Shown here: one piece after another, positions 13,752 to 21,557 of the stretch
Position numbering within the stretch: position 1 is the stretch's first letter
Layout: each line of letters begins with the position of its first letter
From: Myxococcales bacterium
GTDB lineage: Bacteria > Myxococcota > Myxococcia > Myxococcales > UBA5297
Assembly (NCBI GenBank): GCA_031262165.1
Contig: JAISIF010000155.1
Span: forward strand, 1-41,001
DNA: 41,001 nt
Direction of reading: 5' to 3'
Notes under the pieces: generated by a model
Databases searched by the model: none
The model's input: the letters and a program-made list of their open reading frames with translations, nothing else
Told to the model about the DNA's origin: nothing
Made by a program: the position numbers and the translations under genes

Positions 13752-13929
13752 TTCGATGATTCGATCGAATTCATTCGAACCAATCGCACCTGAACGATTC
13801 TCACTATTCTAGAAACTTGAACTGGGATTAGAACTACAGTCATTGATTTGGGCGCTCGAAACATCTTTAAAGGCACATTTTAGAAAGGGCGCTATGGAAC
13901 AAGCCTCGACCGCTCAGAGGCAATAATAT

Positions 13930-14015
13930 TACAGCGGTTTCAAAAAAGAATGACGCATTCCTCAAAGAGAGACAGAAGGCTCAAGTTTGTGTCAAACTTT
14001 CCTGAAACCGCTGTA
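13930..14015 (+). mobile_element. TA-flanked MITE, copy 1 (82 bp)
   Basis: CAGCGGTTTCA at 13932 and TGAAACCGCTG ending at 14013 are perfect terminal inverted repeats, each flanked by TA. That is the target duplication expected for IS630/Tc1-type elements. The 82-bp body differs at one base from the copy at 14664-14745. A shorter relative lies at 20195-20252. One frame through the element is open from end to end, and 82 bp plus a TA duplication equals 28 codons. The ATG of the next gene lies inside this copy. Confidence 0.85.
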
Positions 14016-14423
14016 ATTGGAACAATTGAAGAACTAAGCCAATCGCAGGACGCGCGACCAGCGGCGGCTACAAGTTCATTCGCACCCGAGGACCTCATTT
14101 CAAATACACTCGGATTATTATTTGTAAAGCGTTCTGACGAGAGTATTGAATTCGAAACTTATCTGAGAACTTACCTTCAAGAAGTGGCAAAGCTATTTGA
14201 AGATCCAACTAATTTTCAAGGAAAGTATCTTACCGCAGATGATGTGGCTCTAATCAAGAGCCAGTCGCCAACCGGAAGGCTTGAGGATGTTAGGATAGAT
14301 TCGCCTTTATACACGAACAAGGCACATAATCAGCGTGTGGAGGAAATTAAAAATGTGATTGACCAAAATGATAAACTAAAATGGACGCTTGACATGTATG
14401 ACAAGGTTAAGGGCAACGAATGA
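13950..14423 (+). CDS. Unknown protein whose start codon lies inside a MITE
   Basis: I do not recognise this 157-residue protein. It is hydrophilic and charged with no signal peptide or membrane helix; the C-terminal half looks helical (HNQRVEEIKNVIDQNDKLKW). Its first 22 residues (MTHSSKRDRRLK...SNFPETAV) are encoded by the MITE at 13932-14013, and there is no other in-frame ATG, GTG or TTG between the upstream stop at 13881 and well into the protein. So the insertion seems to have supplied the start, or the gene is a 5'-truncated remnant. GC content is far below that of the flanking genes, which suggests transfer. The stop overlaps the next ATG (ATGA), so the two genes are probably translated together. 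Confidence 0.6.
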   Translation: MTHSSKRDRRLKFVSNFPETAVIGTIEELSQSQDARPAAATSSFAPEDLISNTLGLLFVKRSDESIEFETYLRTYLQEVAKLFEDPTNFQGKYLTADDVALIKSQSPTGRLEDVRIDSPLYTNKAHNQRVEEIKNVIDQNDKLKWTLDMYDKVKGNE

Positions 14424-14578
14424 AAATAGAGGAAACAAAAAAATCGACAAAGCGCTCGTGGCCCAAGGTAGCGTTTCTTATAGGAATTGGATTGGTAGTA
14501 GGTTTTATCCTTGCCATTCTTTTATGTGTTGCGCTTCTTTTATGGAGCGCACCTTCTTGGCCACGTTATCATGATTGA
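14420..14578 (+). CDS. Small single-pass membrane protein, unknown
   Basis: This 52-residue frame starts in an ATGA overlap with the preceding gene. It has a Lys-rich N terminus (MKIEETKKSTKRSWPK), then one strong transmembrane helix at about residues 18-43 (FLIGIGLVVGFILAILLCVA) and a short tail ending SWPRYHD. The positive N terminus predicts an N-in topology. With its partner it forms a two-gene cassette lying between two direct MITE copies in AT-rich DNA. No function can be named. A soluble protein plus a small membrane protein in translational coupling resembles small toxin-antitoxin or sensor pairs, but nothing in the sequence proves either. Confidence 0.6.
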   Translation: MKIEETKKSTKRSWPKVAFLIGIGLVVGFILAILLCVALLLWSAPSWPRYHD

Positions 14579-14661
14579 AGTTGTAGTTGTACTGTCAAAG
14601 CAAGAGTGAAAGTCCGTCCAAAGGGCCGTTTTTCATCAAAAAAATCAAAACCATTTGGTTT

Positions 14662-14747
14662 TACAGCGGTTTCAAAAAAGAATGACGCATTCCTCAAAGA
14701 GAGACAGAAGGCTCAAGTTGGTGTCAAACTTTCCTGAAACCGCTGTA
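14662..14747 (+). mobile_element. TA-flanked MITE, copy 2 (82 bp)
   Basis: Same element and same orientation as 13932-14013, differing by one base (GTTGG instead of GTTTG). The body is 14664-14745 between TA dinucleotides. The open frame through it stops at TAA immediately after the right end, so here it encodes only a 22-codon frame. With copy 1 it brackets the two-gene cassette. Confidence 0.85.
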
Positions 14748-14848
14748 TAATCATGTCATCCATTCGTTTTAATGGGACGACGATGTATATGACAAACAAT
14801 TGAGTCGGCGCATCGATTTTATATCTTCCACCTTATAGCCCTGATTCA

Positions 14849-14994
14849 AGGACTTATCCCTCAATTAGCCCGTCGCCAAAGCTCGTCCGTGAAACGCCAC
14901 TCTTCGTTGATTCGCTCTTCCGCCTGGAAGCTCCCGCCTCTTCTGGCTTTCCCCGTCCTTCGCGGTGCTCGGTCCTCATCGAGGGATAAGTCCT
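14849..14994. mobile_element. MITE with AGGACTTATCC ends, copy 1
   Basis: Terminal inverted repeats AGGACTTATCCCTC and GAGGGATAAGTCCT bound 146 bp. The interior (GTCCGTGAAACGCCACTCTT..., then CCGTCCTTCGCGGTGC) matches the element at 33922-34081 in opposite orientation. The ends resemble the outer end of the IS5-type fragment near 19317 (AGGGCTTATCCATAAAT), which suggests the same transposase family moves it. Confidence 0.8.
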
Positions 14995-15456
14995 AAATCC
15001 AATAAAATCAATGTGATCAACAATCAAAGCATGGCTCCGAAAGGTTCGAGCTCGGATTAAAGAACGTCTTTTAGAGAGAATGAAAATGGAATTTCAGAGG
15101 GTTATACTTTCTAATACAGTCGGATGGTTCAGACACTTCGGGTATAAATGACAATCTTTCTGAGAGATGCTATAATCATGCGTCTCGGCTCAAAACTCTC
15201 AGAATGATTTCATTGAGATGGTGTGGCCATAGAAACCGGAAAGATTCATTGTCGATCCAAGCCGCTTCACTCTGGGATCTTACGAGAATTCGACGTTATG
15301 CGTGAGGTGGCATGGAGTGCCGGAGGCAGAGGCAGCCTGCGAGACAAATCGAAACAGGGCGCACATTGAAGCCCCCAAGGGAAAATGATTCCTCGCGCGC
15401 CCCGCAACGCCGCCCTGCCCCCCCCTCTCGATTTTCGACAAGGAGCGATCTCCACC
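14995..15456. other. AT-rich gap before the response regulator
   Basis: I see no gene here. An imperfect inverted repeat of about 19 bp occurs at 15148-15166 (ATGACAATCTTTCTGAGAG) and 15196-15213, with no T tract after it. GC content rises to the genome norm from about 15300. An open frame upstream of the regulator start (from 15385) has no ribosome-binding site and is read as leader. Confidence 0.4.
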
Positions 15457-17999: not shown

Positions 18000-18163
18000 G
18001 GACTGCCTGCCGGAGAGCAGGTGCTCTCACTCCTACAAATAAATTCAATTTGCTTATCTCCATCAAACCGTAGGGGCGATCGGATGGTCGCCTGCCATGA
18101 ATCGAGGACAAGCCCTATTAGGATGTCCCAGAAAGATTTTTATTTATATCCGCAGCGTCCGAA

Positions 18164-18507
18164 TCATCCGACAATATTAGAAATTGTAACCCCCTGAAAT
18201 CCCACCACTTTGATGATCGACCCACTCGGATCCACAAACCTGAGCGGATTATTCGCGGCATAGGCATACGGATTGAGCGGATAACCGGCGACGGCATAAG
18301 CCTGAACGACTTCTGGGTTTTGATAGAGGGGTTCGGGTTGTAAATATCGTCCGGTTTTGGGTTCGTAATAGCGATAGCCGTTGTAATAGACGAAATCATT
18401 GTCCTGATATTGACCTGGATAGCGGAGATTGAATTCCAGGTCGCCGGACAGGGTTGCTTGTCCGAAGGGATTGGAATTGATTTTGAGGAAGCTCTCCCGT
18501 TCTTTGA
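18164..18507 (-). pseudogene. RHS core C-terminal fragment, module C
   Basis: Directly after lipoprotein C, the minus strand encodes the end of an RHS-repeat core: NPFGQATLSGDLEFNLRYPG, a YYNGYRYYEP block, TGRYLQPEP, then PYAYAANNPLRFVDPSG. These are hallmarks of the RHS-associated core, the conserved part that precedes the variable toxin tip. Only about 20 residues follow DPSG before a TGA at 18164-18166, so there is no full toxin. The frame has a stop upstream near the lipoprotein end and no start of its own. Similar fragments follow lipoproteins A and B. I read it as the seed of an orphan toxin cassette, now decayed. Confidence 0.8.
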
Positions 18508-19056
18508 CTAATCACAGATGAATCCCTGCTCAAATTCTTCTTCTTCGCCCCATTTTGAACAAGCGCCTACGAGATGGGGCGCAGCCAAAGTCCGCTCGAG
18601 GCAACGTCGGGCAACATAGATAAAACTTATTAAATAGGATTTTCTATAAACGGATTTAATCCATGGGGTTTTCTCTTTGACCTCGGGTGTTATTTTTCCT
18701 CCTGGGAGATAAAAAGCAGGCCCCTCAGGAAAGATGATTAGATGCTCACCGCTGATTGCGACTTCTGAAATAGAAGGTTCTATTTCTAAACGAAAAGAAT
18801 TCCGCTTACTATAAGCAAAAGGGCATGGTGGGCAGTCGCCATTATAAGAACCGTCGAGAGGACAACACTCTACCCGAGGACCATGCAGCGCATTGATGCT
18901 AATTGGTGAACAGACTATTTCAAGAGACAAGCTATCATTTTTATCTGCCGGTGGCCCAGACCAATGAATAGAATAATCCAGGTTTGGCTCTACATAAGAA
19001 TTATTTTGACATCCCAACATTACAGCTAGGAGCACAAGGTTGAGAAGATTTTTCAT
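18508..19056 (-). CDS. Cys-rich lipoprotein C, candidate immunity protein of the RHS array
   Basis: The 182-residue protein starts with a lipoprotein signal ending VMLGC (C16). AGGAGG lies 6 nt before its ATG. It is a paralog of the proteins at 19659-20267 and 20710-21255. The three share a CxPISINA segment, a CC pair, C-x-PCPF, LPxGxITP, an ARRC or TRRC motif, and the ending WGEEEEFEQGF[LI]C. Conserved cysteines suggest disulfides outside the cytoplasm. Its start overlaps the stop of the upstream toxin-tip-like frame (TAATG), which is the usual toxin-immunity arrangement, and an RHS core tail follows. That position supports an immunity role (inference); no named family is recognised. It is the most diverged of the three. 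Confidence 0.75.
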   Translation of the reverse strand: MKNLLNLVLLAVMLGCQNNSYVEPNLDYSIHWSGPPADKNDSLSLEIVCSPISINALHGPRVECCPLDGSYNGDCPPCPFAYSKRNSFRLEIEPSISEVAISGEHLIIFPEGPAFYLPGGKITPEVKEKTPWIKSVYRKSYLISFIYVARRCLERTLAAPHLVGACSKWGEEEEFEQGFICD

Positions 19057-19317
19057 TAGAGTCCTCCTATTCCAAATGGCTGCAATCCTGGATAATTCAC
19101 TTTTATTCGGTAACGATTCTCCAGTTGAACTGCATCGGATTCGCCAGGTTTTTGCGCTCGCAAACGCAGAAGAGGATTTCGTTTTGAAAATTCATAATAT
19201 CTATCTAAATCTATATGACCAAAAATCTCATGAAATTGCATCGAGTTCTTTACTAGCGCCATCAACACTGATGTCCCAGTTTGAGAGAGGATCCTGGTAT
19301 TTATCTCCTGGATGCAA
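19056..19317 (-). pseudogene. 5'-truncated RHS toxin-tip-like domain with an HExxGH motif
   Basis: The open frame ends at TAA 19056-19058, overlapping the ATG of lipoprotein C. It reads about 87 residues back to the IS fragment, which cuts off its beginning. It contains MQFHEIFGHIDLD, then ESDAVQLENRYRIK and a PGLQPFG ending. The first part has an HExxGH zinc-site pattern, as in dipeptidyl peptidase III. An E-x-x-A-V-x-x-E-N segment after it is what I recall from metallopeptidase-type RHS tips (M91-like). So this may be the C-terminal half of a zinc-metallopeptidase toxin. A shorter relative with FGHV and ESEYDAVVLENR precedes lipoprotein A. The enzyme class is an inference. Confidence 0.55.
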
Positions 19318-19613
19318 GGGCTTATCCATAAATAGTAATGACCTTATTGAAAGCAATCATCGCTGCCGCCAATTCACATAAAGCAATATATGATGCGTCC
19401 GTCTTTTCATAACGAGGAATCAATTTCCGAAAACGATTGAACCATGAATGACAAGCCTCAACCACCCAGCGCCTTGCTATAAAGTCTGGATTTTTCTCTA
19501 TCAGCCTCTTCTCTTCTCCTCGATGCCGAATATGTGGAACCATTTCGTGTTTCTCCACAACGTCCGCTTTCCCTACATATCCCGCATCCAAACATTAGAC
19601 CTCCTCGGAAACT
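19317..19613 (-). mobile_element. IS5-family transposase C-terminal fragment
   Basis: The minus strand encodes about 89 residues typical of the C-terminal third of IS5-family DDE transposases: a DAGY start, PHIRHRGEE, ARRWVVEACHSWFNRFRKL (with the catalytic Glu), and an end with AAAMIAFNKVITIYG. The first two thirds are missing, so it cannot move itself. The outer end near 19317-19333 (AGGGCTTATCCATAAAT) resembles the ends of the MITEs at 14849 and 33922. The other border falls in the RHS stub after lipoprotein B at about 19613, so the insertion split the RHS core and tip of the module between lipoproteins B and C. Confidence 0.85.
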
Positions 19614-19658
19614 AAAAGGGATCGTAATCTATCTTTTGGACAAACTTTTGAATTTCGG
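19614..19658 (-). pseudogene. RHS core stub, module B
   Basis: Immediately after the lipoprotein B stop the DNA matches the start of the RHS fragment that follows lipoprotein A (VTE, then a Lys/Phe-rich stretch, then DPF). It breaks off at the IS fragment border. It shows that all three lipoproteins were once followed by the same RHS segment. Confidence 0.7.
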
Positions 19659-20267
19659 TCACTCGCAGAGAAATCCCTGTTCAAATTCCTCTTCTTCGCC
19701 CCATTGGGAACAGTCTATTTTATTATGCTCTCGTCTGATACAGCGCCGTGTAGTATAAACAACGTTTAATACCTTGTCTTCTCTATAAACAGATTGAAGC
19801 CATGATTCTTGTCGTCTAAGATCGGGAGTTATTCTACCTTCGGGAAGATAAACTCTCCAGCCGAAATCCACGCTCCAAGGAAAAATAAGAATATCAATAC
19901 CACAGACTGCAACTCCCAGAATTTTGAGCTCTAAGTCCAAATTAACATCCTTCCACTTATTGACTCCAAAAGGACAAGGTGGACAGTTAGACGCAAGTTT
20001 CTGCACATTTGGGCAACACTGTATTGGAGGGCCACCTCGAATCGCATTGATACTAATTGGCAGACAAAGGCTTTCTGGTGACAAAAGTTCCTCTTGATCT
20101 GATGACCTATCAATCTGGCTGATTTCTTTACAGTGAGGTGAAACTGGAGAGGTCTTTTGGCATCCAGCGAGTATAATGATCACTAAAGAAATTACAGCGG
20201 TTTCAAGAAAGTTTGATGCCAAAGAGGAGGGCATTGTTTTTGGGAATCGCTGTAAGGAACTTTTCAT
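19659..20267 (-). CDS. Cys-rich lipoprotein B with a MITE inserted in its signal peptide
   Basis: This 202-residue protein is a close paralog of lipoprotein A; both share CQKTSPVSPHC after the lipobox and end WGEEEEFEQGFLCE. The start, ATG 20267, has a good GGGAGG 6 nt upstream. Residues 6-25 are encoded by a 58-bp MITE plus its TA duplication (20193-20254). Removing those 60 bp restores MKSSLISLVIIILAGC, which has the same length as MKFFLYLFIIIVIPGC in lipoprotein A. The frame is kept, so the product gains 20 residues before the hydrophobic core of the signal peptide. Export may still work, since the added part has basic residues and the core and lipobox are intact. Candidate immunity protein by position. 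Confidence 0.78.
   Translation of the reverse strand: MKSSLQRFPKTMPSSLASNFLETAVISLVIIILAGCQKTSPVSPHCKEISQIDRSSDQEELLSPESLCLPISINAIRGGPPIQCCPNVQKLASNCPPCPFGVNKWKDVNLDLELKILGVAVCGIDILIFPWSVDFGWRVYLPEGRITPDLRRQESWLQSVYREDKVLNVVYTTRRCIRREHNKIDCSQWGEEEEFEQGFLCE
20193..20254 (-). mobile_element. TA-flanked MITE, short variant, inside lipoprotein B
   Basis: The body is 20195-20252 (58 bp) between TA dinucleotides. Read on the minus strand it begins CAGCGATTCC and ends GAAACCGCTG, and it shares both halves with the 82-bp copies at 13932 and 14664 but lacks 24 bp of the middle. The same frame is open as in copy 1, giving QRFPKTMP and SNFLETAV where copy 1 gives QRFQKRMT and SNFPETAV. Insertion adds exactly 20 codons to the host gene. 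Confidence 0.85.
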
Positions 20268-20345
20268 GACGAACCTCCCTGAATTATTATAATGAATCTA
20301 AATCATCTCAACTCTGGATTCTTCGCCCAATCTCGATAATTCTCC

Positions 20346-20709
20346 TCAAATCCCTAGATTATATCTTCGCTTATAGAAACTCCAGGAAAGATTGTCACAT
20401 GCTTTCCCAAATGAAGAAGCCAGGAGCGGTATAACAGTTTTGATGATCAACCCACTCGGATCCATAAACCTGAGCGGATTATTCGCGGCATAGGCATATG
20501 GATTGAGCGAATAGCCTGCGATAGCATAAGCCTGAACGGCTTCGGGGGGGGGGATAGATCTGGCTCGTAATATCGCCAGTCGTTGTAATAGACGAAATCA
20601 TTTTCCTGATATTTTCCTGGGTAACGGAGGTTGAATTCCAGAGCGCCGGTCAGGGTGACTTTCCCGAAGGGAGCGTCATTTATCTTCAGGATGAACTTTC
20701 GAACTTCGG
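20346..20709 (-). pseudogene. RHS core C-terminal fragment with a G10-tract frameshift, module A
   Basis: After lipoprotein A the minus strand encodes FILKINDAPFGKV, LEFNLRYPGKYQ, VYYNDWRYYEP, then PEAVQAYAIAGYS, NPYAYAANNPLRFMDPSG and about 34 more residues to TGA at 20346-20348. The two halves are in different frames. The switch is at a run of ten G on the + strand (20544-20553), where 8 or 11 would restore the frame. The TGRYLQPEP segment of the module C copy is missing at this place. It has no start of its own and looks like an orphan core-tip cassette. The extra residues after DPSG could be a short tip remnant. Confidence 0.75.
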
Positions 20710-21255
20710 TCACTCGCAGAGGAATCCCTGTTCGAATTCCTCTTCTTCGCCCCAGTGTAGACACAAATCTTTATTAGGCATGCGTTCAATACAACGCCGA
20801 GCCACATAGATAACACTGAGCAATCGCTCTTCTTTGTAAACAGATCGAAGCCACGGAGCCGCCTGCCTGACATCTGGAGTTATTTTTCCTTCAGGAAGAT
20901 AAACCCTCCAGCCGAAGTCCATACTCCAAGTAAAGGCAAGCATATCAAGCCCGCAGATCGCAACTCCGTCAATTTGTGGAGCTAATTGCAGGCTAGCGGA
21001 TCTCCACTTGTCTGTCCCGAACGGGCATGGAAAACATTCGTGTAAAGATTCCTTGCCTACGCAGCATTCAACTGGAGGACCACCTCGTATCGCGTTGATA
21101 CTAATTGGTTCACAATAGCTTTCAGGCACCAAAGGGAGCTTTTGATCTGCAGGTCTCAAGACAAATTTAATATGCTCGCAATGAGGTGAAACTGGAGAGG
21201 TCTTTTGACATCCAGGAATCACAATAATTATAAACAAATATAAAAAAAACTTCAT
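20710..21255 (-). CDS. Cys-rich lipoprotein A, candidate immunity protein of the RHS array
   Basis: The 181-residue protein begins MKFFLYLFIIIVIPGC, a lipoprotein signal with C16 lipidated. I chose ATG 21255 because this gives a normal signal peptide that aligns with those of B and C; an upstream in-frame ATG at 21324 would add 23 unrelated residues. The mature part shares with B and C the CxPISINA segment, CC pair, CFPCPF, LPEGKITPD, ARRC and the ending WGEEEEFEQGFLCE. It is followed within about 20 bp by an RHS core fragment and preceded 35 bp upstream by a remnant related to the tip domain before lipoprotein C. Role as immunity protein is inferred from that order. Confidence 0.75.
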   Translation of the reverse strand: MKFFLYLFIIIVIPGCQKTSPVSPHCEHIKFVLRPADQKLPLVPESYCEPISINAIRGGPPVECCVGKESLHECFPCPFGTDKWRSASLQLAPQIDGVAICGLDMLAFTWSMDFGWRVYLPEGKITPDVRQAAPWLRSVYKEERLLSVIYVARRCIERMPNKDLCLHWGEEEEFEQGFLCE

Positions 21256-21290
21256 ATCAGATCTCGCGTTAGAGTGATCAGCATGGGAGA

Positions 21291-21410
21291 CTAGTTTGTG
21301 GACAGCCTCTTCATAATTCGACATCTGTTCTCAAGCACGACAGCATCGTATTCACTTTCGATTGATTTATTGTTTACATGACCAAACATTCCATAAAAAA
21401 AAGAATGGCA
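21291..21410 (-). pseudogene. Remnant of a toxin-tip-like domain before lipoprotein A
   Basis: The frame reads GMFGHVNNKSIESEYDAV and then VLENRCRIMKRLSTN before TAG at 21291-21293. FGHV and ES-x-x-DAVxLENRxRI match the tip domain at 19056-19317, although the HE of the zinc motif and about 18 residues between are absent. A T8 run just upstream (on the minus strand) marks a probable frameshift. Further upstream, up to about 21540, several short frames look protein-like but are broken. I read it as a decayed sister of the module C tip. Confidence 0.55.
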
Positions 21411-21557
21411 TCAAATGGATTATTTTCACCAGCGCTCTTTCTTTAGGTGGTCTACGGTCTGGATGCGAAAATGTCGCACCCCCACGGGTATTATAAAGTT
21501 TTCCTGGTGTTTCATAAATTCTGCACAAGCTTCTTCGACGGTTTTGGCGTGCAACTA

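Follow-up and report, generated by a model that had tools for sequence, protein, structure and literature searches.

A TA-flanked, probably recently spread MITE family in a Myxococcales genome, read in frame within a lipoprotein gene and present at the probably damaged start of an orphan reading frame

The 82 bp repeat found twice around a small gene pair in this window (the whole stretch of 41,001 nucleotides analysed here, contig JAISIF010000155.1) is a typical small non-autonomous transposon, or MITE, that duplicates a TA target. Our account of it, to which we give a probability of about 0.7, has the element spreading recently within one genome, chiefly into islands rich in TA and in AT; when an insertion fell in a readable frame at a gene start, that frame may have survived with a MITE-encoded stretch. 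The 157-residue ORF that begins in copy 1 would most likely be an orphan gene that took the MITE into its 5′ end either during or following the loss or frameshift of its own start, and the ATG inside the copy would simply be the first ATG left to it. The two copies flanking the gene pair would most likely be independent insertions rather than the ends of a composite transposon. Coordinates are collected in Table 1.

Table 1. MITE copies and associated reading frames in the window
Feature	Position	Strand	Details
AT-rich island	13755..15270		43% GC; between rlmN and a response-regulator gene
10-codon ORF, MEQASTAQRQ	13894..13926	+	different frame from the 157-aa ORF; AAGGG a few bases 5′ of its ATG
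MITE copy 1	13930..14015	+	82 bp; TIR CAGCGGTTTCA/TGAAACCGCTG; TA flanking each side
157-aa orphan ORF	13950..14423	+	residues 1–22 from MITE copy 1; coding periodicity outside the element
52-aa single-helix membrane ORF	14420..14578	+	ATGA overlap with the 157-aa ORF; composition gives no clear coding signal
MITE copy 2	14662..14747	+	direct orientation; 1-base difference from copy 1
P3 paralogue without element	18508..19056	-	empty site, MKNLLNLVLLAVMLGC
P2 lipoprotein gene, 202 aa	19659..20267	-	carries in-frame MITE; AGGGAGG Shine-Dalgarno ahead of its own ATG
60-bp MITE variant	20193..20254	-	in frame within the P2 signal peptide, QRFPKTMPSSLASNFLETAV
P1 paralogue without element	20710..21255	-	empty site, MKFFLYLFIIIVIPGC

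The 82 bp unit is under ~300 bp, has terminal inverted repeats perfect over 11 bp (13 bp counting the TA) and contains no gene of its own, the features by which bacterial MITEs are recognised. A TA duplication was present at both ends of 6/6 near-identical copies, and for the 60 bp variant element-free paralogues show an empty site around a single TA. The element folds as RNA, its ends paired, into a hairpin with an energy of -32 kcal/mol and a z of -5 to -6; a search of Rfam gave no match. The sequence-only reading had described two 82 bp copies in the same orientation, differing at one base and flanking genes of 157 and 52 residues, and both its description and its coordinates were correct. 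At the one mismatched position copy 1 has T, while copy 2 and four other near-identical copies have G.

A TA target and CAG ends are expected of Tc1/mariner/IS630-type MITEs, and the transposase that mobilised this family was probably of Tc1/mariner/IS630-like type. No intact IS630-type or cognate transposase was found in the source genome, only weak DDE_3/IS630 fragments, and none of the fetched elements sharing the MITE ends (TACAGCGGTTTCA) carried a transposase. One DDE_3 fragment (C200:16690) was considered as a partner and rejected: its region consists of IS5-like pieces, with matching inverted repeats absent.

A census of the source genome (3.02 Mb, 214 contigs), built from searches and fetched stretches, recovered six near-identical copies (99–100% identity, TA on both sides) and about eleven related elements, ~17 in total, on different contigs. 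The related elements include diverged copies (85 bp unit on C173, 84 bp unit on C189), deletion forms of 60 bp (in the window) and 54 bp (C205:1006), and a class of 115–118 bp with related ends (C50 and C157, with similar elements on C10, C36, C170 and C23); diverged and deleted relatives share the inverted repeats of the near-identical copies. Two congeners and two confamilial genomes contained no copy, matches to the arms with one mismatch allowed were confined to the source genome among 145 genomes of the order, and exact arms occurred in 0 of 84,980 species genomes. Within the reach of these searches, the family is private to its source genome.

The strongest evidence that the element can lie within a translated frame comes from lipoprotein gene P2. 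Without its 60 bp, P2 reads MKSSLISLVIIILAGCQK, compared with MKFFLYLFIIIVIPGCQK and MKNLLNLVLLAVMLGCQN in its paralogues; the three are equal in length and share a Cys-containing end of the signal. P2 aligns with P1 and P3 with a gap of exactly 20 residues, and across the empty site the match runs residue by residue. These two element-free homologues demonstrate an in-frame insertion in a protein-coding gene, and at the level of gene sequence the family is shown to be capable of being read through, as proposed when the element was said to tolerate translation. The P2 product itself may tolerate the insertion. Its pre-cysteine stretch is as hydrophobic as those of its paralogues, and between P1 and P2 dN (0.31) is lower than dS (1.36), the dS being near saturation and the dN/dS value averaging over time before the insertion. 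A search of 59 other related genomes found no relatives. As P2 retains its own ATG behind AGGGAGG, a strong Shine-Dalgarno, the MITE contributes residues there and no start, placing 20 of them before the hydrophobic core and lipobox.

The surroundings of the lipoprotein genes hold other debris. A C-terminal fragment of a DDE_Tnp_1_2 transposase lies between the paralogues (19322–19591, minus strand), and broken pieces of Rhs-type core C-terminus (YYNGYRYYEP...NPYAYAANNPLRFVDPSG) occur over 18090–21500 on the minus strand, each near one of the three lipoproteins; they may be Rhs tips that have been displaced, accompanied by immunity-like lipoproteins.

It had also been suggested that the family favours translation, its frame being open throughout and its length, with the TA, a multiple of three. 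One of the six frames of the 84 bp unit does stay open, but this is at chance level: dinucleotide-shuffled elements average 1.7 open frames and 89.9% of them show one or more, which rules out anything special in the MITE's open frame. The 60 bp form has four. The multiple-of-three rule holds for the 84 and 60 bp units but fails for units of 85, 115 and 116 bp, and so is ruled out for the family. Most of the ~17 elements lie in AT-rich intergenic DNA amid further repeats or where broken genes end, and start-side fusion to a gene-like ORF was counted in only 2/~17 elements of the census; an in-gene location is thus not frequent across the family, and the suggested preference is not upheld. Elsewhere, the copy at C205:780 codes for the final residues of a transposase-like frame that was already broken, and the 54 bp variant at C205:1006 forms the C terminus of an unrelated ORF.

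Several reading frames touch copies of the element. An AT-rich ORF with a hydrophobic segment (L069, C205:1019–1489), itself of 157 aa, has its last residues encoded by the 54 bp variant. Copies at C87:9051 (L070) and C173:13693 (L072) are each found downstream of the start of a small membrane protein, the two starts being paralogous (MTVLGVVGSAF... and MSDLGVVGSAF...), and the latter copy terminates its small membrane-protein ORF. A 147-aa ORF that spans the C87 copy was discounted as a gene: its GC content is flat across codon positions, and some of its sequence resembles another repeat.

In the frame of the 157-aa ORF the last stop is at 13881–13883, and no ATG, GTG or TTG follows until the ATG at 13950, which lies in the MITE. 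The sequence-only reading, which placed this ATG and the first 22 residues in copy 1 and found no alternative upstream after the stop, was correct for the ORF as drawn. With the MITE removed, GTG 14184 becomes the first ATG, GTG or TTG of the frame, so any earlier start is no longer visible; it may have been an unusual codon, have gone with a lost 5′ end, or have been separated by a frameshift from the ATG at 13894. That ATG opens the 10-codon ORF, which hits TAA at 13924 and is a candidate remnant of the gene start that preceded the insertion. The 135 element-free codons have a 3-base periodicity matched by ~1 in 2000 shuffles, indicating that the frame is now coding, or recently was; its length as a bare open stretch is matched by about 2% of shuffles. 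No convincing homologue was found in 60 relatives, genome contigs, viral contigs, phages, plasmids, Pfam, PHROGs, PADLOC or PDB. The protein has a weak match (E = 0.007) to PHROG 14979, whose function is unknown, and an AlphaFold model made without an alignment (mean pLDDT 38) was uninformative.

What this frame now represents can be read in more than one way. The MITE could supply a working start, with translation from ATG 13950 and the first 22 residues of the protein encoded by the element. That ATG is, bar a GTG likewise inside the MITE, the sole in-frame ATG, GTG or TTG upstream of a stretch with coding periodicity, and N-terminal portions of proteins encoded by MITEs are on record (Delihas 2007, PMC2759123). 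However, it has no Shine-Dalgarno at usable spacing and is buried in the -32 kcal/mol hairpin, both of which make it doubtful as a start, and there is no homologue to show that the gene was kept; we regard a working MITE-supplied start as unlikely and, given also that no earlier start is visible, rank a damaged 5′ end above it. A stronger form of our preferred explanation, for this locus alone, is that the ORF is a 5′-truncated or frameshifted pseudogene from which no protein is made, its open frame through the MITE being accidental. Its position where synteny breaks, in an island full of repeats, the short ORF at 13894 with its RBS-like AAGGG in a different frame, and the decayed Rhs and transposase pieces in neighbouring islands all fit, whereas the uninterrupted ORF, its periodicity and the overlapping downstream ORF suggest that it was coding until recently; we put this reading at a little under even odds. 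It is quite improbable, in our estimation, that the family repeatedly hits gene starts and, translated in the same frame (QRFxKxM...SNFxETAV), shapes N termini, giving a new start in one case and a longer lipoprotein signal peptide in the other. The frame read in P2 is indeed that read in the 157-aa ORF, but this says little, since there are two cases only and gene survival selects readable insertions.

The paired copies had been thought capable of mobilising the two genes between them. Direct copies do flank an AT-rich gene pair that is missing from the congeners, and rlmN and the response-regulator gene are not adjacent in either of the two congeners, as might be expected had a composite transposon brought the cassette. 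Uniform scatter of 8 copies would give about 0.015 pairs within 732 bp, but copies are not so scattered: they concentrate in AT-rich islands, and a second clustered pair (C205:780 and 1006) has no intact gene between its members. The island in the window, set in a region otherwise near 65% GC, has 3.5 times the TA density of the rest of the window, and the non-adjacency of its flanking genes in the congeners marks it as a rearranged, repeat-rich spot. With such a TA-dense target, a TA at every MITE end and the C205 pair bracketing no intact gene, two independent insertions are sufficient. A second copy of the cassette, with or without the MITE, was found nowhere in the source genome, relatives, viral contigs, phages, plasmids or genome contigs searched. 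With this result, the failure to find an intact transposase and the C205 pair, mobilisation has no support, and we hold a composite transposon to be very improbable.

Other repeats share the island. One of ~150 bp at 14849–14998, with inverted ends AGGACTTATCCCTC...GAGGGATAAGTCCT, has about 40 relatives in the genome (75–87% identity) and none in the two congeners, and forms another MITE-like family, more abundant than the 82 bp one. A further repeat at 14994–15164 has relatives at C174:33430 and C67:9120 (83–87%), with similar sequence at 18110–18210.

In-frame fusion of MITEs with genes is already well described; what is added here is a new family of such elements. Rickettsia palindromic elements (RPEs) are likewise short palindromic repeats lying in frame inside protein genes (PMC2229807, PMC10969869), but they are 105–146 bp long, occur in many conserved genes and do not universally have TA ends, whereas the present MITE has a unit of 60–84 bp, TA ends as the rule and 2/~17 copies lying within genes, towards their starts. 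The enterobacterial MITEs ERIC/RU-1 and YPAL/RU-2 have ORFs fused in frame to host genes, as the MITE is in P2, and in Yersinia RU-2 forms part of the signal peptide of YPO1552 (PMC2759123, PMC2229807); P2, by contrast, keeps its native lipoprotein signal core and the MITE extends the region ahead of it. The Correia/NEMIS elements of Neisseria resemble it in having size variants with TA ends, a strong stem-loop and open frames fused to genes, these last in a 107 bp variant (PMC2229807), and are set apart, by description, in size and host.

The new family joins a short list of bacterial elements that are read inside proteins, and does so with a clean empty-site control within one window. Were the ATG borne by the MITE in fact used, the 157-aa ORF would offer a traceable example of a gene start made by a transposon; as matters stand, the insertion appears to be an ordinary, tolerated one.
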